From: Bacteroidales bacterium
GTDB taxonomy: Bacteria > Bacteroidota > Bacteroidia > Bacteroidales > UBA932
DNA: 32,160 nucleotides
NCBI GenBank assembly: GCA_017423025.1
Contig: JAFPGC010000002.1
Coordinates: forward strand, 1 to 32,160
Reading direction: 5' to 3'
Shown here piece after piece: positions 1,860-31,071 of the stretch. Each line of letters starts with the position of its first letter. The stretch's first letter is position 1. The translations under genes and the position numbers were made by a program. A model generated the notes under the pieces. It saw nothing but the letters and a program-made list of their open reading frames with translations, ran no database searches and was not told where the DNA came from.

Positions 1860-3146
1860 TTAACCCTTCAGACAAGCCAAGGGAATGACGTGGACGCCGT
1901 CGGGGCGAGTATAGGCGTACTCGCCGCCGGTGATGACCATGAGGAGGTCCGGTTCGCGAAGGGGAACTTGTTTCTCTTCTTCGTTGTGTTTACGAATGAG
2001 GCCCACCAGTTCTTTGAGGTGCCCCGCACCATCATCTATCTCGGCGCTGCCCAATTTGCATTCTATGAGTGCGTAACGGCCGTCTTCCAGGTGCAGGACA
2101 ATGTCGGCCTCCAGGCCGTAGCGGTCACGGTAGTGGGAGATCTCGCCGTCGAGCGGGGCGGAATAGACCTTGAGGTCCCTCACGCACATACATTCGAAGA
2201 TGAATCCGAATGTCTTGAACTGGGTGAGTAGCTGGCCCGGGCCGAGGCCCAGGGAGGCCACGGCAACGGAGGGGTCGCAGAAACTGCGCTTCTCACCGCT
2301 GCGGATGGCGGTCTTGGAACGGATGGAAGGATTCCAGGCACCGATGTCCTGGATGACGAAGAGTTTCTCCAACGCAGCTACGTATTTGTCGAAGGTGCTG
2401 CGGGAGAGGGAATCGTTGTTGGCGGTGACATCGGCAAGGATGGTGGATTTGTCCACCATGGTGGAAACGTTGCGGGCATAGGAGCGAAGGATGGCCCGGG
2501 CAATCTTGGGGTCGAGTTTTTCCTTGGCGGCCTTGGAGATGTCTTTGTCGCAGACGGTCTTGACGTAATTCTTGGCTACGAGGAGTTTACCGCGCTCGGT
2601 TTTGGGTTGCAGAGCTGCAGGCCAGCCGCCACGGCATGCCGCGAAGATAAGGTCTTCTACGCTCATCTTCGAGCGGGCACCCAGGTCCGTCTTGGGATTG
2701 TCAAAAAGGGCCTCCAGGGAGATGTCTCCGGTGGACTCTCCGGATTCGTACAGGCTCATGGGGTACATCGTGAGGTCCGCGATACGACCGGTGCCAGTGT
2801 GGGCGGTCTCGTCCGTGTCGGCCGCAGCTGATCCGGTGAGGATGAACTGCGAGGGTTTCTGCCGGCGGTCGCAGGCTACACGGACGGCATCCCATAGAGT
2901 GGGCGCGTCCTGCCATTCGTCAATCAGTCGGGGCGTTTTACCTTCCAGCAGGAGCGATGCTTTGGTGAGAGCTGTTGCCAGGTATTCATCCCGTTTATCG
3001 GTGTCCTGCAATTCAATGATGCTGGCTGCTTTCTGCTTTGCCGAAGTGGTTTTTCCACACCATTTGGGGCCTTCTATATTGACGGCTCCGAAGGCGTCCA
3101 GGTAGTCTTGCAACTGGTCATCAATGACTCTCTTTAAGTAGTCCAT
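1860..3146 (-). CDS. AAA_14 / DUF4143 family ATPase
   Basis: This 428-residue protein has a Walker A loop (GPKWCGKTT, about residues 26-34, Lys32) and a Walker-B-like strand (RLIDEWQDA, Asp76-Glu77). An FILTGSAA sensor-like strand follows near residues 101-108. The C-terminal half carries the DUF4143 pattern, including an Arg-rich helix before SYARNVST, and ends with a nuclease-like strand (YALIECKLG). This is the usual size and order for the family, common in Bacteroidetes and often in accessory positions. Its physiological role is unknown; the restriction-nuclease-like C-terminal fold suggests nucleic-acid or defence-related functions, but this is inference. It is a single gene convergent with the remnant at 1614 and divergent from the thioredoxin-fold lipoprotein. 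Confidence 0.88.
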   Translation of the reverse strand: MDYLKRVIDDQLQDYLDAFGAVNIEGPKWCGKTTSAKQKAASIIELQDTDKRDEYLATALTKASLLLEGKTPRLIDEWQDAPTLWDAVRVACDRRQKPSQFILTGSAAADTDETAHTGTGRIADLTMYPMSLYESGESTGDISLEALFDNPKTDLGARSKMSVEDLIFAACRGGWPAALQPKTERGKLLVAKNYVKTVCDKDISKAAKEKLDPKIARAILRSYARNVSTMVDKSTILADVTANNDSLSRSTFDKYVAALEKLFVIQDIGAWNPSIRSKTAIRSGEKRSFCDPSVAVASLGLGPGQLLTQFKTFGFIFECMCVRDLKVYSAPLDGEISHYRDRYGLEADIVLHLEDGRYALIECKLGSAEIDDGAGHLKELVGLIRKHNEEEKQVPLREPDLLMVITGGEYAYTRPDGVHVIPLACLKG

Positions 3147-3200: not shown

Positions 3201-3213
3201 TATTCCCGCAAAA

Positions 3214-3281
3214 ATTGACGGTAAGATTTGCGGCAATTTGGCGGTAACATTTGTGGTAAAATGGCGGTGAGATTTGTGTTG
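3214..3281 (+). repeat. Three imperfect tandem copies of a ~23-bp unit
   Basis: Copies at about 3214-3235, 3236-3258 and 3259-3281 share the core GGCGGTAAgATTTGTGGT with one to four differences each. They lie between the divergent starts at 3146 and 3331. They could be operator sites or a slipped-strand duplication. A promoter-like TAGTATTTG lies just downstream at 3291-3299, with one base too many between TA and TTTG for the consensus. Confidence 0.5.
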
Positions 3282-3330: not shown

Positions 3331-4551
3331 ATGAAACGTCTTGGTCTATTTCTGGCAATTGCAGGATGCTTTGTCTTTTGTGCGGCTTGTTCAGATGTGC
3401 CCCTAAGCGGCGCGGTAATTATGGGAGACTTGAGCGGATTCGCCCCGGATGACAGCATAACTGTTTATCTTGTTCACTATGATGGGCCAGCCGGGATGAG
3501 CATTTTGACAGACACGCTTAGGGATGGACATTTCTACTTCCGTCTGGATTCACTTTCAGGAGAGAAACGCTATGCCCTCAGTTTGATGCGGATCCATAAA
3601 GACATCGGCGCATACGATATGCTTGGTCATGGCCCTGACCTTTATTTGGAGCCCGGCGCACTTGTCCGTATAAAAGGAGAAGGCAAGTATCTGCCCATTG
3701 CCAAGGTCTCCAGCCCGGTAAAGGACCAGAAACTTAGGCAGCGCTTTATATCCAAAATGTCCCAGGAGGATTGGAAAAGGAGTCAAGATTTATTCATAGA
3801 ATATTATGCCTTGCTCAACGATTATTCCTATGGTAGTGATACAACTCGCACATATAAGGAATCACTGAAGAGGAAGATGACAGAAAACATGGCGGCAACA
3901 GACAGTGTTGGCATGCTGCTCACGGAGCAGAAACTGGAGATAATGGAAACGGAGCCTTTTGGTGAGTATGCCCTTACTGAACTCTGCTCTATTGCCAGTT
4001 TTGTTTCTTCCGGCTACAAAGACTTCCCGAAGTACCGTGAAACGGTGACCAGATTGGCGAATCGGCTGACAGAAGAGCAGAAACAAACTCGTCAGGGAAA
4101 GGAGATTCTCAGTTACCTGCAGCAAGTAACAAAGGTCTCCGTCGGTGACACTGTGCCGGGTTATGAATATGTCGATGCCGATGGAGGCAAGCATTATCTT
4201 TCCGAGCTTCGCGGCAAATGGCTATTGCTGGATTTCTGGAGTCTGGGATGTGGCCCGTGCGTAGGAGCGGCCAAGGAGCTGCGCCAGCTTTCCAATGAAA
4301 TCGGTGGCAAAAACCTACAGCTGGTGAGTATAAGCGTTGATGGTGAAGAAGGGTGGAAAGAGGCCTCTGAACTACACCGGATTACCTGGACCAACTGGCG
4401 AGACCCGATGGGACAAGCGGGAAGCATCAGGGCCTATAATCAGAACGGCATTCCCGTCTTCGTCCTGGTCGATCCGGAAGGCATAATCAAGGATATCCAA
4501 CTCGGCCATTATGATGGCCTCCTTCGCAAGCTCACGGCCGATATCGAATAA
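3331..4551 (+). CDS. Thioredoxin-fold (TlpA/AhpC-TSA-like) lipoprotein with N-terminal DUF4369-like domain
   Basis: This 406-residue protein begins with an SPII signal peptide (lipobox CAAC, Cys20), so it should be lipid anchored in the envelope. Residues ~25-125 form a beta-rich domain like the DUF4369 domain that precedes thioredoxin folds in many Bacteroidetes proteins. A helical linker follows to ~270. From ~275 a TlpA/AhpC-TSA module carries GDTVPGYEYVDADG, LLLDFWSLGCGPC (Cys307 and Cys310 as the redox CXXC) and the cis-proline strand GIPVFVLVDPEG. Such proteins reduce or isomerise disulfides of exported proteins. The redox partner is not evident. The gene stands alone between a divergent ATPase and a convergent toxin-antitoxin remnant. 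Confidence 0.9.
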   Translation: MKRLGLFLAIAGCFVFCAACSDVPLSGAVIMGDLSGFAPDDSITVYLVHYDGPAGMSILTDTLRDGHFYFRLDSLSGEKRYALSLMRIHKDIGAYDMLGHGPDLYLEPGALVRIKGEGKYLPIAKVSSPVKDQKLRQRFISKMSQEDWKRSQDLFIEYYALLNDYSYGSDTTRTYKESLKRKMTENMAATDSVGMLLTEQKLEIMETEPFGEYALTELCSIASFVSSGYKDFPKYRETVTRLANRLTEEQKQTRQGKEILSYLQQVTKVSVGDTVPGYEYVDADGGKHYLSELRGKWLLLDFWSLGCGPCVGAAKELRQLSNEIGGKNLQLVSISVDGEEGWKEASELHRITWTNWRDPMGQAGSIRAYNQNGIPVFVLVDPEGIIKDIQLGHYDGLLRKLTADIE

Positions 4552-7774: not shown

Positions 7775-8755
7775 ATGATTAAGGGACTCGCCCATATTGC
7801 CGATGTCGCCGCCTTCCTGAGGGAAGAGCCGGAGCTCTATGTCGTTTATGACGAAAACGTGGCCGGAGTGGCCGAGGCTGTGCTGAAGGACCTTCCTCTG
7901 GCAAAAGCAGCCATCGGCCTGAAGACTTCCGAGGAACGGAAGACTCTGGAGACGGTGCAGGGGCTTTGCCGGCGGCTGCTGGAGGCCGGAGCTTCCCGGA
8001 ACGCCTTCCTGCTGGCCGTGGGCGGGGGTATCACCACCGATATGACCGGCTTTGCGGCCGCCATCTACAAGCGCGGCATCCGGTACGCCAACCTTCCCAC
8101 CACGCTTCTGGCGCAGGTGGACGCTGCCATCGGCGGAAAAACGGGAGTTAATCTGGACGGATACAAGAACATGCTGGGCGCCTTCCGCATGCCGGAATAC
8201 ACGTTCCTTTGCGCTGAAGTCCTGCAGACCCTTCCGCCACGGGAATATCGCGCCGGCCTGGCCGAAATGCTCAAAACCTTCCTGATAGGAGACGCCGAGG
8301 CCTACGAAGCCGCCCTCAAAGGCGTAACGCCCACCCTCATAAGCAAAGCTGCCCGCATCAAGGCCGAGATTGTAAGCCAAGACCCTCAGGAGCACGGAAT
8401 CCGCGCCAAACTGAACCTGGGGCACACCTTCGGCCACGCCATTGAGCACGAAGCGCAGAAAAGAGGGGACGACATCCATCACGGCGAGGCCGTGGCCATG
8501 GGAATGATCCTGGCAGCGCGGCTGTCGGAGCGTATCGGCCTGGCACAGAAGGGCTTGGAAAAGAAGTTAAGGGCCGATTTTGAAGCCGTGGGCCTGCCTG
8601 TCGGATGCCCTTACCCGCTGGAAAACCTGGCGGCCGCCATGGCGGTAGACAAGAAAGCCGCCGAGGGCCGCGTCAAGTGGATCCTCATAGAAGCACCCGG
8701 CCGGGTGGTAATCCAGGAAATGACCGTAAAGGAGGCAATGGATGATTTGCGTTAG
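7775..8755 (+). CDS. aroB: 3-dehydroquinate synthase
   Basis: AroB converts DAHP to 3-dehydroquinate, using NAD+ and a divalent metal in the cytosol, in step 2 of the shikimate pathway. This 326-residue protein carries the family signatures: AVGGGITTDMTGFAAA (NAD-binding glycine loop), LPTTLLAQVDAAIGGKTGVN, YRAGLAEMLKTFLI, the metal-ligand segment LNLGHTFGHAIEHE, and HHGEAVAMGM. It is somewhat shorter than the usual ~350-360 residues, mostly at the N-terminus. The gene overlaps the downstream aroD-aroA fusion by 14 bases, so coupled translation is likely. It is the first gene of a shikimate cluster. Confidence 0.97.
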   Translation: MIKGLAHIADVAAFLREEPELYVVYDENVAGVAEAVLKDLPLAKAAIGLKTSEERKTLETVQGLCRRLLEAGASRNAFLLAVGGGITTDMTGFAAAIYKRGIRYANLPTTLLAQVDAAIGGKTGVNLDGYKNMLGAFRMPEYTFLCAEVLQTLPPREYRAGLAEMLKTFLIGDAEAYEAALKGVTPTLISKAARIKAEIVSQDPQEHGIRAKLNLGHTFGHAIEHEAQKRGDDIHHGEAVAMGMILAARLSERIGLAQKGLEKKLRADFEAVGLPVGCPYPLENLAAAMAVDKKAAEGRVKWILIEAPGRVVIQEMTVKEAMDDLR

Positions 8756-10733
8756 CATTCAAAATAAGGACTTCCAGGAAATTCAGAAGATTCTGGAAAG
8801 CGTAGAGATGGCCGAAATCCGTCTGGACCGATGCGCCCTGGAAGACGATGAGATAGAGCAACTGTTTCAGGATTCGGACGTTCCGCTCATAGCGACTTGC
8901 CGCATGAGCGAGGAATCCCAGGCCCCGGAACTGCTGGAAATGGCCATCCGGGCCGGCGCCAAATATGCCGACCTGGAGATGGAGGCGCCCGCTGCGGTGG
9001 GCCGCCGCATCCGCGAGGCCTGCCGGGAATACGGAACCGTCCTCATCCGCTCCTACCACGACTTCAACGGAACGCCGCCCCTGGAAGTTCTTAAGTCGCT
9101 GGTGGAAAGGGCCCGCAACTTTGGGGGCGAAGTGGTAAAAATCGTTACTACAGCCACGTCAGAGGCCGATAACACCACCGTCCATGCCCTCTACAAAGAC
9201 GCCGCTCCCGGCTCCCTGATAGCCTTCTGTATGGGCGATGCCGGGCGCACCTCGCGCCTGGACGCCCTGCGCTGCGGCGCACCTTTCACCTACGCCTGCC
9301 TCAGCGAAGAGGAGGCCACCGCTCCGGGCCAGTGGAGCATGGAAGCCATGCAGAAAGCCGTGTATGGCGGTTTCCGTTTTGTAAAATCCTCGGCCCTCCC
9401 CATGCCTTCTTCCAAAAGTTTTGCTCAGAGGGCCATTATTGCCGCCGCTCTGGCCGAAGGAACGTCTCATTTGAGGGGTTACACACCCTGCGGAGACAAC
9501 GAAAGCGCCATTAAGGCCGCAAAAATGCTAAAAGCGGGGGTAGAAATCGAGGGTAACACCGTTGTTATACACGGAATTGGCACAGCTCCAGAGAGCCTCC
9601 ATTTGTCCGAAATTCACTGTGGAGAATCCGGCTTTTTGACCCGGTTTGTCATCCCGCTTCTCTCCGTGATTTCAGACGAACAAGTTCTGGTCACCGGAGA
9701 AAAAACCCTTCTCAACCGGCCTCTAACCAGTGCTCACGATATTATGGCGTCTTTTGGCGTCCGTTTGTATCCGGAAGGGGAAAATCAGAGGAAACAGGAT
9801 TGTTACCTGCCTTTGAGGGTTTCCGGACCCCTCATTCCGGGCCGCGCAGACGTCTCCGGAAAGGGTGGTTCGCAGCTCTTGAGCGGCTTGTTGGCGGCCC
9901 TTCCTCTTTGTGAGGGAAAATCGGCCTTATATGTCCATGAACCCAGGAGCATTCCGTACCTTTTTATCACCGTAGACGTGCTCAAAAAGTTCGGAATCCG
10001 CATGAGTTCGGAGATGGAGGGCGACGATGACTTCCTTGAAACGCAGGATTGGAGCCTTTGCACGGGCGTGAACTTCCACATCAAGGGCGGACAGCGCTAC
10101 AAGGCAGCCGATTTTGCCATCGAGGCCGACTGGTCCAGCGCCGCTCCTTTCCTGGTAGCCGGAGCCATCTTTGGAGACGTAGAGGTAGAAGGACTTGATA
10201 CAGAGAGCCTTCAGGCCGATATTTCCATCATGGACATCCTTATGGAAGCAGGTGCCAGCATGTCGCAGCTGGACAGCCCCGACGGGCCCATCCACGTGCG
10301 CCGCGCGCCGCTGAGTCCCTTCCACACAGACCTCAACAACTGTCCGGACCTCTTCCCCATAGTGGCGGTGCTGGCGGCATTCTGCCCTGGCGAAAGCCAC
10401 CTGCTGGGCGTAGAGCGCCTGCGCCACAAAGAAACCGACCGCGCGGCCGCCATTGAGGAGATGCTCCAGCAGATGGGCGTGCCCGTCCAAATAGAAGAAG
10501 ATGAGATGGTTATCTTCGGAATGGGGCTTACGCAGCGCATCCTGCAAGGAAAGCTGCTGCACGGCGGATCCTTCCGCTCCCACGCCGACCACCGCATGGT
10601 AATGGCCCTCAAAGTGGCCTCCCTGGGCGCCGACAGTCCCGTAGAGATTGACGACGTCACCTGCGTAGCCAAGTCCTTCCCCACCTTTAATGAATTGTTT
10701 GATGTAATGAGATACGCTCGGTCTGAGGCATAG
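8742..10733 (+). CDS. aroDA: Bifunctional type I 3-dehydroquinate dehydratase / EPSP synthase fusion
   Basis: Residues ~1-205 are a type I dehydroquinase: SYHDF (His106, general base) and EVVKIVTTA (Lys133, Schiff base) are 27 residues apart, as in E. coli AroD (His143/Lys170). From ~210 an EPSP synthase follows: PMPSSKSFAQRAIIAAALAEG (Lys225), the Bacteroidetes-style CGESGFLTRF loop, GKGGSQLLSG, the CPDLFPIVAVLAAF segment, RLRHKETDRAAAIEEM and HADHRMVMAL. The dehydratase makes 3-dehydroshikimate (step 3) and EPSPS makes 5-enolpyruvylshikimate-3-phosphate (step 6), so the fused steps are not consecutive. No frameshift or stop separates the halves, and total length (663) equals the sum of two complete enzymes. 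The ATG overlaps aroB. Confidence 0.95.
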   Translation: MICVSIQNKDFQEIQKILESVEMAEIRLDRCALEDDEIEQLFQDSDVPLIATCRMSEESQAPELLEMAIRAGAKYADLEMEAPAAVGRRIREACREYGTVLIRSYHDFNGTPPLEVLKSLVERARNFGGEVVKIVTTATSEADNTTVHALYKDAAPGSLIAFCMGDAGRTSRLDALRCGAPFTYACLSEEEATAPGQWSMEAMQKAVYGGFRFVKSSALPMPSSKSFAQRAIIAAALAEGTSHLRGYTPCGDNESAIKAAKMLKAGVEIEGNTVVIHGIGTAPESLHLSEIHCGESGFLTRFVIPLLSVISDEQVLVTGEKTLLNRPLTSAHDIMASFGVRLYPEGENQRKQDCYLPLRVSGPLIPGRADVSGKGGSQLLSGLLAALPLCEGKSALYVHEPRSIPYLFITVDVLKKFGIRMSSEMEGDDDFLETQDWSLCTGVNFHIKGGQRYKAADFAIEADWSSAAPFLVAGAIFGDVEVEGLDTESLQADISIMDILMEAGASMSQLDSPDGPIHVRRAPLSPFHTDLNNCPDLFPIVAVLAAFCPGESHLLGVERLRHKETDRAAAIEEMLQQMGVPVQIEEDEMVIFGMGLTQRILQGKLLHGGSFRSHADHRMVMALKVASLGADSPVEIDDVTCVAKSFPTFNELFDVMRYARSEA

Positions 10734-10772
10734 GGATGACAAATGTCATTCCGAGCGAAGCGAGAGAATCTC
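10734..10772. repeat. Short palindromic intergenic element
   Basis: The gap before aroC contains a perfect inverted repeat ATGACA-AA-TGTCAT (10736-10749) followed by TCCGAGCGAAGCGAGAGAATC. Elements of the form TGTCATTCCGAGCGAAGCGAG-GAATCT are, to my knowledge, dispersed in many Bacteroidetes genomes. Here it sits between two genes of one pathway and could stabilise or attenuate the transcript. Confidence 0.5.
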
Positions 10773-10785
10773 AAAATAGAATAAC

Positions 10786-11877
10786 ATGAACACCTTTGGT
10801 AATAAATTCAGAGTCAGCATTTTTGGCGAATCCCACGGACCGCGCATTGGCGTAACCGTGGACGGTGTCCTGCCCGGCATTCCGCTGAGCGAGGCCGATT
10901 TCGTACAGGACCTCTCCCGCCGCAAGGCCGGCGCACTGGGGACTACCCCGCGCTTGGAGGCCGATGAACCCGAGATTGTCTCCGGCGTCTACGAAGGCAA
11001 GACCACCGGCGCCCCGCTCACCATCCTGTTCAAGAACGAAAACACCCGCAGCGAGGATTACGAGCAATTCCGCAAGAATCCCCGTCCGGGGCACGCCGAT
11101 TTCACGGCGAACCTCAAATTCGGCGGGTTCAACGACCCCCGCGGAGGCGGCCATTTCAGCGGCCGGATGACCCTGGGCGTGGTTGCAGCCGGCGTCATCG
11201 CCAAGAAAATGCTCTATTTTGCCAAGTTCAACGCTAAGCTGGTGGCCGTAGGCGGCCTTTCCGACGCCAGTCAGTGGCCGGAGGCGCTGAAGGCCGCACA
11301 GGCCGAGGGAGATTCCCTGGGCGGCGTAGTGGAATGCACCGTGGAAGGGCTTCCCATCGGCCTGGGTGAACCCTTCTGGAACAGCGTTGAAAGCCAGATT
11401 TCCCATGCCGTCTTTGCCATTCCCGGCGTCAGGGGCGTCGAGTTTGGTGACGGCTTTGCCGCCAGCGCCATGAAGGGCTCCGAGCACAACGACCCCTTCC
11501 CGGAGCACCATTGCCACCATCACGAAGGAGAAGAGCATCAGTGCTGCCATGGAGAGCACGAAGAAGGCCATGAATGCGGCTGCCATCACGAAGAGGGCGA
11601 AGAGCACCACTGCTGCCATGGGGAGCACGAAGAGGGCGGCGAACACCACTGCTGTGGCCGTCACAAGCACCCCCAGCCGCCCGTGACCAACCACGCCGGC
11701 GGCGTGAACGGCGGCATCACCAACGGCAATCCCGTAGTATTCCGCGTGGCATTCAAACCCACGGCCAGCATAGCCAAGGCCGGAATTCCCGGCCGTCACG
11801 ACGTATGCTTCGCCCTGCGTACCCCCGTCATCGTAGAGGCCATGGCCGCCATCGTACTGGTAGATTTGGCCTTGTAA
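10786..11877 (+). CDS. aroC: Chorismate synthase with a His/Cys-rich insertion
   Basis: AroC removes phosphate from EPSP to give chorismate, using reduced FMN. Core motifs are present: FGESHG (His17), RPGHADF, FNDPRGGGHFSGRMT, GLGEPFW, GDGFAASAMKGSEHNDPF, NHAGGVNGGITNG, KPTASIAKAG and GRHDVCFALRTPVIVEAMAAI. The RGGGHFSGR form is the one I associate with Firmicutes/Fusobacteria-type enzymes rather than the Bacteroides RGGGRSSARET form. Between NDPF and NHAGG, where other enzymes have ~10-15 residues, residues 239-301 hold 19 His and 9 Cys with many Glu. Two other loops (after GVIAKKML and after SIAKAG) are shorter than usual, so total length (363) looks normal. Third gene of the shikimate block. 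Confidence 0.95.
   Translation: MNTFGNKFRVSIFGESHGPRIGVTVDGVLPGIPLSEADFVQDLSRRKAGALGTTPRLEADEPEIVSGVYEGKTTGAPLTILFKNENTRSEDYEQFRKNPRPGHADFTANLKFGGFNDPRGGGHFSGRMTLGVVAAGVIAKKMLYFAKFNAKLVAVGGLSDASQWPEALKAAQAEGDSLGGVVECTVEGLPIGLGEPFWNSVESQISHAVFAIPGVRGVEFGDGFAASAMKGSEHNDPFPEHHCHHHEGEEHQCCHGEHEEGHECGCHHEEGEEHHCCHGEHEEGGEHHCCGRHKHPQPPVTNHAGGVNGGITNGNPVVFRVAFKPTASIAKAGIPGRHDVCFALRTPVIVEAMAAIVLVDLAL
11518..11654 (+). repeat. Tandem repeat (period ~66 bp) coding for the His/Cys-rich insert of AroC
   Basis: Two imperfect copies start at 11518 and 11584. Each begins catcacgaag and contains gctgccatgg-gagcacgaag. They encode HHEGEEHQCCHGEHEEG and HHEEGEEHHCCHGEHEEG, the second with one extra Glu. A shorter partial unit (GEHHCC) follows. 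All changes keep the frame, consistent with in-frame expansion. Confidence 0.8.
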
Positions 11878-26026: not shown

Positions 26027-28531
26027 ATGAAAAGACTGTTATTCGGAGCCTTAGCTTGTCTGCTGGCACTGACGGCCTGCGGACAGGGCGACCTCGAGGA
26101 TTATACCCTGCGCATGCAGGCCTATGACGGTGCCCTGAAGCCCTTTATGACGCTGCCGGAGGGAATATCGGCCCAGGAGCGCGAAGCGCTGCAATTCCTG
26201 TATGCCTATATGCCGCTGGCCGATGTGACGGACTACCCGGCCGAGTTTTACCTGGCCAATGTGCGCAAGTCTTTCCAGGCGCGCGAGGAATTGCCCTGGA
26301 AGGTGCCGGAGCGCGAATTCCGCCACTTTGTGCTGCCGCTGCGCACCAACAACGAAGACCTGGACAGCGCCCGGCTGGTCTTTTATGACGAGCTCAAGCC
26401 CCGCGTGGAAAAGCTTTCCATGAAGGACGCCATCCTGGAAGTGAACCACTGGTGCCACGAGAAAATGACGTATCAGCCCTCTGACGGCCGTACGCACGCC
26501 CCGCTGGCCTCTGTGAAGAATGCCCTGGGCCGATGCGGCGAGGAATCCACCTTCACGGTGGCTGCCCTGCGCAGCGTAGGCATCCCCGCCCGGCAGGTTT
26601 ACACCCCTCGCTGGGCCCATACGGAAAGCAACCATGCCTGGGTAGAGGCCTGGGCCGACGGTCAGTGGTACTTCATTGGCGCCTGCGAGCCCGAGGCCGT
26701 CCTCAATCTGGGCTGGTTCAACGCCCCCGCCTCCCGGGCCATGCTCACCCACACCAAGGTTTTCGGCCATTATGACGGCCCCGAAGAGGTGGTTTTGGAG
26801 ACGCCCAACTACACGGAAATCAACCTTATCGAGAACTACGCCAAGGCCGCCAAGGCGCACATTACCGTGCTTTCGGCCGATGGAACCCCTGTGGAGGGTG
26901 CCCGCGTAGACTTCTGCATCTACAATTCTTCCCAGTTCTTCCCGGCTGTGTCCAAGTATACGGACCGCCAAGGCGGCACCGCCTTGAGCGCCGGCCTGGG
27001 AGACATGCTGGTGTGGGCTGCGAAGGATGGCGAATACGGCTTTACCAAATGCCGTTTTGGCCAGGATACGGAGCTTTCCATAACCCTGAACTCTCCGGTG
27101 GGGAATCCCATCAGCAGTGAACTGTTCTTTATGGTTCCTCCGCCGGAAGAGGTGACCCTGCCGGAAGTGACGCCGGAGCAGCGCGCAGAGAATGACCGCC
27201 GCATGGCCTATGAAGACTCCGTGCGCAAGGCCTATATGGCCGGCTTCCCGGACCGGATGGCCGCCGAGGCCTTCGTAGCACAGAACGGACTGCCCGCCGA
27301 GGCCGCCCGCCTGGTGGAAGCATCGGCCGGTAACCACGCGGTTATCAAGGACTTCCTCGCCAAGGCCGAAGATAAGGAAAGGGCCGTACAGCTTTTGCAG
27401 AGCCTGAGCCGCAAAGACCTCTCGGATGTGCCTGCCGCCATTCTCTGGGACAGCTACAACGCCAAGGAGAGCCTCCTGCCCGTGCGTATCGAGAGCGAGT
27501 TCCTGTCCCCCTATAAAGGCTGGTTCCTGCAGAATGTTCCCGCAGAACTTGAGGCAGAATTCCGGGGAAACGCCCAGGCTATTATGGACTGGGTTAACCA
27601 GAATATTATTGTAGATGACAATCCGCTCTTCTGGGACATTCCCATGTCGCCCGTGGGCGTATGGAAAGCCGGCGTGGCCAATCCGCGTTCCAGAGATCTT
27701 CTGACCGTAGCGCTGGGCCGTACGTTTGGCGCAGAGATTCGCCGGAACCGCTTCTCCGGCTCTCTCCAGGCAGGGGAAGGCAAGATGGCGACCGGCGAGG
27801 TGGAGCTTACCTTCACGCCCGTGGAGGGGGTGGAGCGTCCTCAGTTCGGCCAGCACTTTACGCTCAGTAAAATAGAGAACGGCGGCCTGAGGATGATGTT
27901 CCTGGGGATGGGCGGCCGTCCCGGCCCCGGTGGCCCCCGTATCCCGCGCGGCACCAGCGGGGAGCTGCCGGAAGGTGACTACCTCCTGGCCAGCGGCAAC
28001 CGCCTCTCGGACGGCAGTACGCCCGTTACGGTGACGCTGTTCCACGTAACGGCCGGAGAGAAGCTCCAGGTGCCCCTTATCATTGAAACCGTGCCGGAAG
28101 AAGTGACCGTGATAGGCTCCTTCGAGGCCGACAAGCTCCCGGAACAGCCCGGAAAGGGCTATTATGCCGCCGCCGTCCTGGATGTGGGAATGGAACCCAC
28201 CAACCACGTCCTGCACGACCTGGCCGAGGAGCGCAGCGCCCTGGAAAAATGGGGCCGGCCCATCTACCTTCTTACCACCAGCCAGGCGCAGATGGACCGC
28301 CTGAAGGAAGAGATTCAGCAGGGGCGCTACGGCACTCTGCCTTCTACCGCCGTCCTGGCCATCGACACGGACGGCCGTGTGCTCAAGGGCATCACCGAGA
28401 GCCTGCAACTGCGTGAAAACCAGCTTCCTGTGGTCTTTATGGCCAATACGGACGGCGAGGTGATCTTTGTCTCCCAAGGATATACTATCGGCATGGGCGC
28501 CCAGTTGGAGGCCCTGGCCAAAAAACTGTAA
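26027..28531 (+). CDS. Transglutaminase-core lipoprotein, copy 1
   Basis: This 834-residue protein has an SPII signal (LTAC, Cys18). Residues ~60-230 form a transglutaminase-like cysteine-protease fold: NALGRCGEEST (Cys170), IPARQVYTPRWAHTESNHAWVEAW (His203) and DGQWYFIGACEPE, where the usual third-residue aspartate appears as Glu. Residues ~285-350 look like a carboxypeptidase-regulatory Ig domain (VEGARVDFCIYN...GDMLVWAAKDGEYGF). The C-terminal ~130 residues (GRPIYLLTTS, PVVFMANTDGEVIFVSQGYTIGMG) recall a thioredoxin fold without its CXXC. Bacterial members are usually peptidases or amidases; the substrate is unknown. A paralogue starts 5 bp after its stop. Confidence 0.82.
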   Translation: MKRLLFGALACLLALTACGQGDLEDYTLRMQAYDGALKPFMTLPEGISAQEREALQFLYAYMPLADVTDYPAEFYLANVRKSFQAREELPWKVPEREFRHFVLPLRTNNEDLDSARLVFYDELKPRVEKLSMKDAILEVNHWCHEKMTYQPSDGRTHAPLASVKNALGRCGEESTFTVAALRSVGIPARQVYTPRWAHTESNHAWVEAWADGQWYFIGACEPEAVLNLGWFNAPASRAMLTHTKVFGHYDGPEEVVLETPNYTEINLIENYAKAAKAHITVLSADGTPVEGARVDFCIYNSSQFFPAVSKYTDRQGGTALSAGLGDMLVWAAKDGEYGFTKCRFGQDTELSITLNSPVGNPISSELFFMVPPPEEVTLPEVTPEQRAENDRRMAYEDSVRKAYMAGFPDRMAAEAFVAQNGLPAEAARLVEASAGNHAVIKDFLAKAEDKERAVQLLQSLSRKDLSDVPAAILWDSYNAKESLLPVRIESEFLSPYKGWFLQNVPAELEAEFRGNAQAIMDWVNQNIIVDDNPLFWDIPMSPVGVWKAGVANPRSRDLLTVALGRTFGAEIRRNRFSGSLQAGEGKMATGEVELTFTPVEGVERPQFGQHFTLSKIENGGLRMMFLGMGGRPGPGGPRIPRGTSGELPEGDYLLASGNRLSDGSTPVTVTLFHVTAGEKLQVPLIIETVPEEVTVIGSFEADKLPEQPGKGYYAAAVLDVGMEPTNHVLHDLAEERSALEKWGRPIYLLTTSQAQMDRLKEEIQQGRYGTLPSTAVLAIDTDGRVLKGITESLQLRENQLPVVFMANTDGEVIFVSQGYTIGMGAQLEALAKKL

Positions 28532-28536
28532 TAATT

Positions 28537-31071
28537 ATGAAAAAACTGCTGTTCTTCCTTTGCACGGCCGGCCTGCTGCTTTCCTGCACGGACCAGAAGT
28601 ATTATGTCAAGGATTATCAGGACCGGATGGAAGCCCACCAGGGAGCCCTGGCTCCGTTCATGGCCCTGCCCAAGGGCATATCGGCCCAGGAAAAAGACGC
28701 TCTGGAGTTCCTCTATGCCTATATGCCCGTGGCCGATGTAACGGACTACCCGGCCGAATTCTACCTCCAGAACGTGCGGGCGGCCCTGGATACCCGCAAC
28801 CGATGGAACGTTCCGGAGCGGGAGTTCCGCCATTTTGTGCTACCCCTCCGCGTAAATAACGAAAGCCTGGACAGCTCCCGCGTGGTGTTCCAGCGGGAAC
28901 TGATGCCCCGGATCGAGGGACTCTCGATGGAAGAGGCCATCCTGGAAGTGAACCACTGGTGCCACGAGAAAGTGACCTACCAGCCCTCCGACGCCCGTAC
29001 TTCCTCGCCGCTGAATCTGGTGAAGAATGCCTTGGGCCGATGCGGAGAGCAGTCCACCTTCTGCGTGGCGGCCCTGCGCAGCGTTGGCATCCCCGCCCGC
29101 CAGGTGTATACCCCCCGCTGGGCCCACACCGACGACAATCACGCCTGGGTAGAGGCCTGGGCCGACGGGGAATGGCATTTCCTGGGCGCCTGCGAGCCCG
29201 AGCCCGTCCTGGATCTGGGTTGGTTCAACTCCCCGGCCTCCCGTGCCATGCTCATGCACACCAAGGTTTTCGGCAAGTATGACGGCCCCGAAGAGGTGGT
29301 TCTGGAAAGCCCCAACTACACCGAGGTGAACCTCATTGACAATTACGCCAAGATCGCCCGCATCGATTTCCAGGTGGTCTGGTCTCCGGACGCCCCCAAT
29401 AAAGACGCCGGCAAGCCCGTGGAAGGCGCCCGCGTAGACTTCTGCATCTACAATTATGCCGAGTTCTATCCCGCCGTTTCCAAGTATACGGACGCCGAGG
29501 GCCGCACTTTCACCAGCGCCGGCCTGGGAGATATGCTGGTATGGGCTTCCAAGGGCCATTCCTTTGGCTTTACCAAGGTGAGCTTCGGCAAGGATAAGGA
29601 AGCGACCATCGTGCTCCAGTACTATGCCGGGGATAAGTATGCCTCTCCTGTAGGCGTCAAGAAGGCCTTTGATATTGTGCCTCCGCCGGAGAACGTAAAA
29701 CTTCCCGAGGTCACTCCCGAGCAGCGCGCCGCCAACGACAAGCGCTTTGCCTATGAAGACTCCCTCCGCCACGCCTACGAAGCCACATTCCCCACGGCCG
29801 CAGAAGCCCTGGCCTTTGTGCGGGAGCAGGGTTACAATGACCAAATGGCCTCCTATCTTGTCCGTGCCAGGGGAAATGCCCAGACTCTGAAAGACTTTTT
29901 GGCCGCAAACGGCAACTTCGAGCGCCGCGAAAAAGTATTGGAATCCTTGAGCACCAAGGATTTACACGACATCACGCCCGAACTGCTGCAGGCCTATTAC
30001 ACGGCCGAACCGTTCTTCGGAACCCGGGTAGAGAATGAGTTCCTTACGGATTATTACAGCTTCTTCCAGGCCGGTGCCGGCGCAGACGCCACCCAGCACG
30101 GTATTATGGTCCTCAAGGACCCTACCGCATGGAACATTCCCATGTCTCCGGAAGCCGTATGGAAGAGCAAACTGGCCGACCCCCGTTCGCTGGATATCTA
30201 TACCGTTTCGCTGCTGCGTGCCCGCGGTAAGGAAGCCCGCAAGAACCCGGTGACCGGTGTGCTGGAGGTACGGGAACAGGGCGGCGACTGGAAGTCCCTC
30301 CAGGCCGCACCCGGAAAAGAAGACCCCAAGGGAACCCTCAAGCTTACTTACACGCCCACCAAAGCCGTGGAGAATCCCCAGTATTATACCCATTTCACCC
30401 TTTCCAAGATTGTGGACGGCCGTCCGCAGCTCCTTTCCTTCGATGAAGGGGAGGTGGACATGGGCGGCGGAACCGACTGGGCCCACACCTTCAAGAACGG
30501 CTGTAAGCTGGACGAAGGCACCTATCTGCTGGTCTCCGGCAACCGTCTTTCCGACGGCTCAGTACCGGTTTCCATGTGCTTCCTGCTCATTGAGGAAGGA
30601 AAGGAGACCGTGGAGAAACTCCAGATTAACGAGGACGCCGGCAGCCTGCCGGTCATTGGCAGCTTTGATGCCGAGAGCAAGATTACGGTGAACGGCGAAC
30701 AGGTTTCCGTCCTGTCCCAGGTAGGCCGCGGCTTCTACGTGCTGGCCCTGCTGGAACCCGGCAAAGAGCCCACCAACCACGCCCTGCGCGACCTTGCCGC
30801 CGCCCGCGAACAGCTGGAGGCCTGGGGAAGACCCATCGTGCTGCTCTGCACCTCTGAAAAGGCCCTCCAGCAGCTTCAAAAGGAAGAACGGGAAGGCCGA
30901 TACGGGAAACTGCCCACGACGGTCATCTTCGGCATTGCGCCCGAGGAGCTTCTCACGGGAGCCCGCCCGGTGGTGCTGGTGGCCGACAGTTTCAACCGCG
31001 TATTCTTCCGCAGCGAAGGCTATACCATCGGCCTGGGTAACCAGATTGCCGGAATGGTCGTCAAGCTCTAA
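28537..31071 (+). CDS. Transglutaminase-core lipoprotein, copy 2 (tandem paralogue)
   Basis: This 844-residue lipoprotein (LLSC, Cys17) shares architecture and long stretches with the preceding gene: ISAQEKDALEFLYAYMPVAD, ILEVNHWCHEKVTYQPSDAR, the catalytic NALGRCGEQSTF (Cys169), DDNHAWVEAW (His202) and FLGACEPEPVLDLGWFN. The Ig-like region is slightly longer than in copy 1 (extra SPDAPNKDAGK). The C-terminal thioredoxin-like domain again lacks cysteines. Only 5 bp separate the genes, so they form an operon under the promoter at 26000. The domains differ most in the middle linker, suggesting divergence after tandem duplication, perhaps for different peptide substrates. Confidence 0.82.
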   Translation: MKKLLFFLCTAGLLLSCTDQKYYVKDYQDRMEAHQGALAPFMALPKGISAQEKDALEFLYAYMPVADVTDYPAEFYLQNVRAALDTRNRWNVPEREFRHFVLPLRVNNESLDSSRVVFQRELMPRIEGLSMEEAILEVNHWCHEKVTYQPSDARTSSPLNLVKNALGRCGEQSTFCVAALRSVGIPARQVYTPRWAHTDDNHAWVEAWADGEWHFLGACEPEPVLDLGWFNSPASRAMLMHTKVFGKYDGPEEVVLESPNYTEVNLIDNYAKIARIDFQVVWSPDAPNKDAGKPVEGARVDFCIYNYAEFYPAVSKYTDAEGRTFTSAGLGDMLVWASKGHSFGFTKVSFGKDKEATIVLQYYAGDKYASPVGVKKAFDIVPPPENVKLPEVTPEQRAANDKRFAYEDSLRHAYEATFPTAAEALAFVREQGYNDQMASYLVRARGNAQTLKDFLAANGNFERREKVLESLSTKDLHDITPELLQAYYTAEPFFGTRVENEFLTDYYSFFQAGAGADATQHGIMVLKDPTAWNIPMSPEAVWKSKLADPRSLDIYTVSLLRARGKEARKNPVTGVLEVREQGGDWKSLQAAPGKEDPKGTLKLTYTPTKAVENPQYYTHFTLSKIVDGRPQLLSFDEGEVDMGGGTDWAHTFKNGCKLDEGTYLLVSGNRLSDGSVPVSMCFLLIEEGKETVEKLQINEDAGSLPVIGSFDAESKITVNGEQVSVLSQVGRGFYVLALLEPGKEPTNHALRDLAAAREQLEAWGRPIVLLCTSEKALQQLQKEEREGRYGKLPTTVIFGIAPEELLTGARPVVLVADSFNRVFFRSEGYTIGLGNQIAGMVVKL

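Follow-up and report, generated by a model that had tools for sequence, protein, structure and literature searches.

A selected, putatively metal-binding His/Cys-rich loop in the chorismate synthase of Candidatus Cryptobacteroides

What a long run of histidine and cysteine might be doing inside chorismate synthase is the question raised by aroC in the window, the whole stretch of 32,160 nucleotides from a Bacteroidales draft genome that was analysed here. The gene (positions 10786..11877, plus strand; 363 amino acids) was assigned from Pfam and from matches to solved structures. PF01264 covers residues 8-363 (profile positions 1-327 of 327, E 3.7e-99), a whole-length family match, and 11 distinct solved chorismate synthase sequences were matched. 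Residues G14-G18, R45, R46, R100-H103 and G336-D339 are invariant among 54 aligned proteins, so that the GESHG, RR, RPGH and GRHD segments, which we take to have a catalytic role, are present. Judged by its sequence, the open reading frame is a full-length and otherwise normal chorismate synthase. The draft genome (2.39 Mb, 87% complete) gave one aroC match. Upstream and codirectional lies an aroD-aroA fusion of type I dehydroquinase and EPSP synthase (8742..10733, plus strand; PF01487 and PF00275), which overlaps by 14 bp with aroB, encoding 3-dehydroquinate synthase (7775..8755, plus strand; PF01761 and PF24621).

The insert occupies AroC residues 239-301 (11500..11688, plus strand) and reads PEHHCHHHEGEEHQCCHGEHEEGHECGCHHEEGEEHHCCHGEHEEGGEHHCCGRHKHPQPPVT. 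A recount returned the same 19 His and 9 Cys in 63 residues as a sequence-only reading of this DNA had given, and no 63-residue stretch of the 19 other predicted genes in the window exceeds 8 His and Cys combined. The same reading had placed the insert between conserved segments, and the 54-protein alignment agrees: its flanks, H234-N235-D236 on one side and N302, G305 and G306 on the other, are nearly invariant. An imperfect tandem repeat of about 66 bp had also been proposed. The repeat is real, imperfect and frame-keeping; its period was wrong, the best self-match being at a shift of 69 bp (54% over 123 nt, against 37% at 66 bp), a match attained in 1 of 2000 codon shuffles when in-frame shifts of 30-90 are considered. 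The unit found by TRF is 30 bp long and present in 3.2 copies with 63% matches (11530..11634, plus strand). Five His-x-Cys pairs, proposed here as metal-binding knuckles, stand 10-13 residues apart (11506..11655, plus strand; H241/C243, H251/C253, H262/C264, H274/C276 and H287/C289). With overlapping matches and HCC counted, the insert holds 7 such motifs versus 2.6 in shuffles (p 0.002). Its C-terminal end, GRHKHPQPPVT (11656..11688, plus strand), is by eye the best-kept part among the listed loops of near relatives. Two further AroC loops had been called short. This is clearly so for residues 326-336, a loop of 11 residues in 30 of 132 relatives and 25 in 102; the second, of 37 residues in the window, falls within the 34-38 found in 89 of 132 relatives (up to 89) and is shorter than its counterpart in the three solved structures with alignments listed.

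Compared on its own with solved structures, the insert had no match at E up to 10. Nor did the draft genome yield a second His/Cys stretch at the same limit, although such a search may be blunt for biased sequence; there is thus no sign of a wider metal-storage programme. Chorismate synthases of apicomplexans also carry long internal extensions, but to our knowledge none is His/Cys-rich. A literature search judged by titles found no paper on a His-rich insert in chorismate synthase, and the phrase 'histidine-rich insertion' had no match. The portions of published chorismate synthase models available to us give substrate-binding residues and nothing on this loop.

Is the insert an isolated expansion? 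AroC hits were obtained in 143 of 151 genomes of the genus Candidatus Cryptobacteroides, and the protein was examined in 30 of the loci and in 100 retrieved stretches. The genus follows from exact matches between some of its loci and named records: L214, from the same-genus genome G088, is contained in L076, a contig of Candidatus Cryptobacteroides caccocaballi. Leaving out L236 (too short) and L230 and L234 (which end before the loop), 127 proteins span the site. Nineteen of them carry a His/Cys loop, defined as at least 25 residues with more than 25% His and Cys, 4 carry other long inserts and 104 have 0-22 residues, counts that depend on the alignment. The sequence-only reading had named absence from all close relatives as the refuting outcome; the insert is instead shared with many of them. 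A further 13 genus hits lie outside the 127, seven of which (L034, L035, L037, L039, L042, L051 and L052) have loops of 7-13 residues. Two records, L096 and L117, gave no open reading frame and L100 is incomplete. When one relative's loop was used as query, 31 of 400 genus genomes matched, and 29 of the 30 matches opened were the AroC loop. Among 393 genomes drawn from the order, the sole match was the window's own; the absence from other genera is provisional, because this query is blunt: the genus sample has 19 genomes with a loop, and in a draw of 400 the query matched 12 of these (G003 is a listed non-match). Seven named records, all metagenome assemblies, carry the loop; six (L056-L061) have 'RUG' names, which presumably stand for rumen uncultured genome, and the remaining one is L063 (UBA4230). 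Its loop is interrupted by a run of N, and L063, while within the set of 132 relatives, was left out of the trees and loop tests. The loop carriers are a group of gut bacteria, many from rumen samples. One relative, L296 (G447:C16:9054-9239), has an in-frame stop inside its His/Cys loop and represents either a truncated gene or possibly an assembly error.

The length of the site ranges among relatives from complete absence to 93 residues, and in part of the genus it is occupied by a sequence of His, Cys, Glu and Gly. The loop is wholly missing in L024/L078 (one genome), L026, L086 and L123, and these proteins, together with the 104 of 127 with 0-22 residues, count against a metal-binding role. 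The proteins wholly without the loop are minimal enzymes of 292-295 residues that also lack the otherwise nearly invariant flanking residues. Relatives without the loop also bear on a second explanation, in which the loop acts as a gate responding to metal or redox state: an ion bound in the loop, or oxidation of its Cys, would shift FMN-contacting neighbours and switch chorismate synthesis, and selection would act through regulation of the enzyme. AroC requires reduced FMN, and the two nearly invariant segments that bracket the insert are presumably close in sequence to FMN-contacting residues and near the FMN/EPSP site. Metal is also reported to inhibit the isomerase SlyD reversibly (PMC7055735). 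However, a range of 28-92 residues in 34 loops and complete absence in relatives are ill-suited to a precise switch, and the existence of relatives without a loop here weakens the idea, raised by the sequence-only reading, that metal or redox state might control the enzyme's activity. We regard such a gate as unlikely.

If the loop were a passenger, its sequence should drift, and mismatches should be even over the three codon positions. Loop DNA was compared between species without gaps, on every diagonal and ignoring codons. The L016 group was left out of this set, as was L296 except in the count of 34 loops. Among 21 loops without a recognisable palindrome, each of the 171 matching segments keeps the frame, with 157/115/1223 mismatches at codon positions 1/2/3; among 33 loops, the figures are 332 of 332 and 359/301/2154, the pairs in each case being drawn among kin and hence not independent. 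An earlier comparison of 20 loops that included L016 gave 70 of 70 segments in frame and mismatches of 79/70/448. Sixty upstream codons of the enzyme body, treated in the same way, show 1242/569/4471 (20 sequences), so the loop is at least as codon-asymmetric as the enzyme body. Over the first 140 codons, the difference at fourfold sites between L001 and eight relatives amounts to 45-58%. We simulated drift of the window loop, in which about a quarter of the random base draws leave the base unchanged. At 0.5 draws per site, His and Cys fall to a mean of 20% and the frame stays open in 12% of 1000 runs; the values are 31% and 32% at 0.2 draws and 12% and 6% at 1.0. The 34 observed loops, of 28-92 residues, contain 33-46% His and Cys. 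The His-x-Cys motif occurs 118 times in 21 loops versus 44.6 ± 5.4 after shuffling, 2.6 times commoner, the highest of 2000 shuffles being 64, and 46 of 59 spacings in 19 loops are 9-13 residues (steps of 1 left out). The L016 group is an exception, with CC and CH clusters and no His-x-Cys pair. The loop amino acids and the His-x-Cys pairs are kept by selection at the protein level. At the same time, the His/Cys loops differ between species in length and order and change fast; ligand order is not conserved and therefore no single site is.

A third explanation takes the loop as a functionless, tolerated insertion hot spot on the enzyme surface where repeats expand and contract. In four relatives from other lineages (L020, L021, L028 and L187), the position of the His/Cys loop is taken by long inserts that are not rich in His and Cys. 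The aroC loops of L021 and L020 each contain one copy of a second dispersed repeat, found at 11, 9 and 3 places in G072, G017 and G049 (0 in the reversed control). By eye, the L028 loop resembles the reverse strand of this repeat, to which it is unmatched. These unrelated inserts, the copies of the second repeat and the fact that the site can be absent indicate that the loop site is a tolerant point, a hot spot with repeated insertions. Tolerance of the point does not account for the codon-position asymmetry, the constant frame and the kept His/Cys content of the His/Cys loops, and we consider a functionless loop distinctly unlikely. Since the loop is present in many close relatives and its coding is under protein-level selection, a metal-binding loop is favoured over a tolerated accident. 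The explanation we find reasonably probable from the sequences is that the insert is a lineage-specific, selected, multi-site putative metal-binding loop in an otherwise normal chorismate synthase. Selection on its make-up could also reflect another property, for example solubility.

Metal-holding arms of His and Cys occur in chaperones and transporters. A selected and quickly remodelled arm of this kind in a core enzyme of biosynthesis would extend metal handling to a new location, and it would make a natural test case for the evolution of disordered, ligand-rich loops. The SlyD tail of Escherichia coli and Helicobacter pylori is described as unstructured, variable between species, rich in His, Cys, Asp and Glu, with a capacity of up to 7 Ni(II) for each protein; its affinity for the several Ni(II) or Zn(II) ions that it binds is micromolar, and it is nickel that reversibly inhibits the isomerase (PMC7055735). 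Like that tail, the window's AroC loop is a species-variable, ligand-rich stretch, its metal binding being putative from composition. Unlike SlyD, an FKBP-type isomerase with a terminal tail, AroC carries the stretch as an internal loop of a biosynthetic flavoenzyme. PF01264 is the sole Pfam domain in the window AroC (E up to 0.001), and the FKBP and IF isomerase domains of SlyD are absent. Thus the loop may work like the SlyD tail, while the protein itself is not a SlyD. On our best reading, the loop is probably disordered and a candidate metal binder that works as the His/Cys tail of SlyD does. Without metal it would be disordered, and each His-x-Cys(-Cys/His) cluster with a neighbouring Glu could coordinate Zn(II), Cu(I) or Ni(II). 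An AroC homotetramer would present four such arms. The most likely use would be the holding or buffering of metal ions, as is thought for the SlyD tail. Feedback of bound metal on AroC activity would be possible and secondary, and is not needed to explain the data.

The internal repeats suggest that the loop grew by tandem duplication. Trees of the enzyme body were built from 106 of the 132 rows and from 49 rows, duplicates and distant rows being left out; in the 49-row tree, loop-bearing rows fall in two lineages. A single clade of the 22 loop rows was rejected on that tree (AU p 4.4e-6). The loop DNA of L014 (first lineage) is related to that of L016 (second lineage), scoring 100 versus 30 ± 6 in codon shuffles. 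L001, L005, L009 and some others also score above shuffles against the L016 loop, and L003, L008, L013, L019, L031 and L058 do not. The history may consist of one gain and several losses, or of loop transfer between species.

Several relatives appear to have extended the loop further by taking up copies of a dispersed palindromic repeat. This repeat is near TGTCATTCTGAGCGNAGCGAAGAATCTCA and reads CHSERSEES, with a variant that reads CHTERSERI. It occurs at 66, 59, 88 and 70 places in G028, G125, G124 and G038 (0 in the reversed control), and in the window's genome at 2 places with the same consensus and at 13 with a second consensus, allowing up to 3 mismatches (control 1). One intergenic copy lies in the window 13 bp upstream of the aroC start (10745..10772, plus strand) and belongs to the same family as the copies inside relatives' aroC loops. 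An in-frame, sometimes altered, copy is present in 12 of the 34 distinct first-lineage loops. The scores of those in L002, L005, L007 and L008 were reached by none of 300 codon shuffles, and the copies in L015, L057, L289, L290, L292, L294, L305 and L309 were read from the codons. All are in a single frame and supply Cys; His comes with it except in one copy. L290 (CHSEHGEES) and L007 (CHSEDGEES) keep the repeat's flanking codons and differ at the tip. Six aroC-loop contexts all use the CHSER/CHTER frame, versus 2 of 10 Pfam-recognised host genes elsewhere (Fisher p 0.007); this frame preference is no more than suggestive, because contexts were grouped by eye and the ten genes hand-chosen.

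The window's own loop gives no detectable copy, scoring 15 against the repeat versus 15.8 ± 2.2 in 300 codon shuffles, and its derivation from the repeat is unsupported (local alignment versus codon shuffles, p 0.66). The lone low score among loops without an evident copy was that of L006 on the minus strand with the second repeat form (p 0.010, among many scores). These results bear on a fourth explanation, in which the whole His/Cys loop consists of old, remodelled palindromic repeats, with CHSERSEESHEC passing to CHSEHGEESHEC and finally to CHGEHEEGHEC under selection for His and Gly. The relatives do form a series, with near-perfect copies (L289, L294) at one end, tips changed to His-Gly (L290) or Asp-Gly (L007) in between and the ordinary units at the other end, and every recognised copy is in one frame. 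However, when 14 loops were aligned to the repeat (L014, L015, L019, L057, L058 and L016 left out, L011 cut too long), 10, all without an evident copy, matched it on the plus strand no better than codon shuffles, and the repeats may simply have landed in a pre-existing loop. An origin of the entire loop from such repeats is very unlikely in our estimate. A narrower proposal, which we put forward tentatively and with some doubt, is that a selected metal-binding loop was built in part from dispersed palindromic repeats as its raw material: the repeats would have entered in a Cys-His-Ser-Glu frame, some being then altered towards His and Gly (CHSERSEES to CHSEHGEES), and would have given a central enzyme a new metal-holding arm.

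Short dispersed palindromes fused in frame into conserved genes are described for Rickettsia palindromic elements (RPE) and for other intragenic REP/MITE sequences (PMC2229807, PMC3733652). RPEs measure 105-146 bp, and the single insert put to the test was considered neutral or mildly deleterious (PMC2229807). The CHSERSEES copies in relatives' aroC are likewise dispersed palindromes in frame in a conserved gene. They differ from RPEs in measuring about 29 bp, in lying within a ligand-rich loop and in being altered, in some cases, towards the make-up of that loop; unlike in RPE-bearing genes, no copy is detectable in the loop of the window's aroC. If the recruitment proposal is true, a mobile repeat has added function to a conserved enzyme. 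As of a 2007 review, a mobile repeat improving a conserved protein's function had not been shown (PMC2229807). The palindromic copies in aroC make it directly testable whether mobile repeats improve conserved proteins, and relatives that carry the repeat can readily be compared with others that lack it, as can relatives with a loop with those that have none. A literature search found the repeat's 11-letter core in 12 papers and did not find the longer repeat string or CHSERSEE.

Outside aroC, the repeat is in frame in long open reading frames of the window's genome that encode DnaX, a FakA-like protein, MiaA, HydF, a class I tRNA synthetase, ATP synthase subunit a and B12-dependent methionine synthase (loci L137, L138, L139, L140, L141, L143 and L146), and in relatives in TilS, TruB and a DsbD-like protein (L154, L161 and L164), all names being inferred from Pfam domains. 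Eight of ten copies in these housekeeping genes read VIPSEAS-like or VILSEAK, an RPE-like phenomenon in Bacteroidales. Elsewhere in the window, a 23-bp tandem repeat in 2.9 copies (3212-3278) lies between the open reading frames 1860-3146 and 3331-4551, and the adjacent, codirectional open reading frames 26027-28531 (834 amino acids) and 28537-31071 (844 amino acids) are similar to each other by eye.
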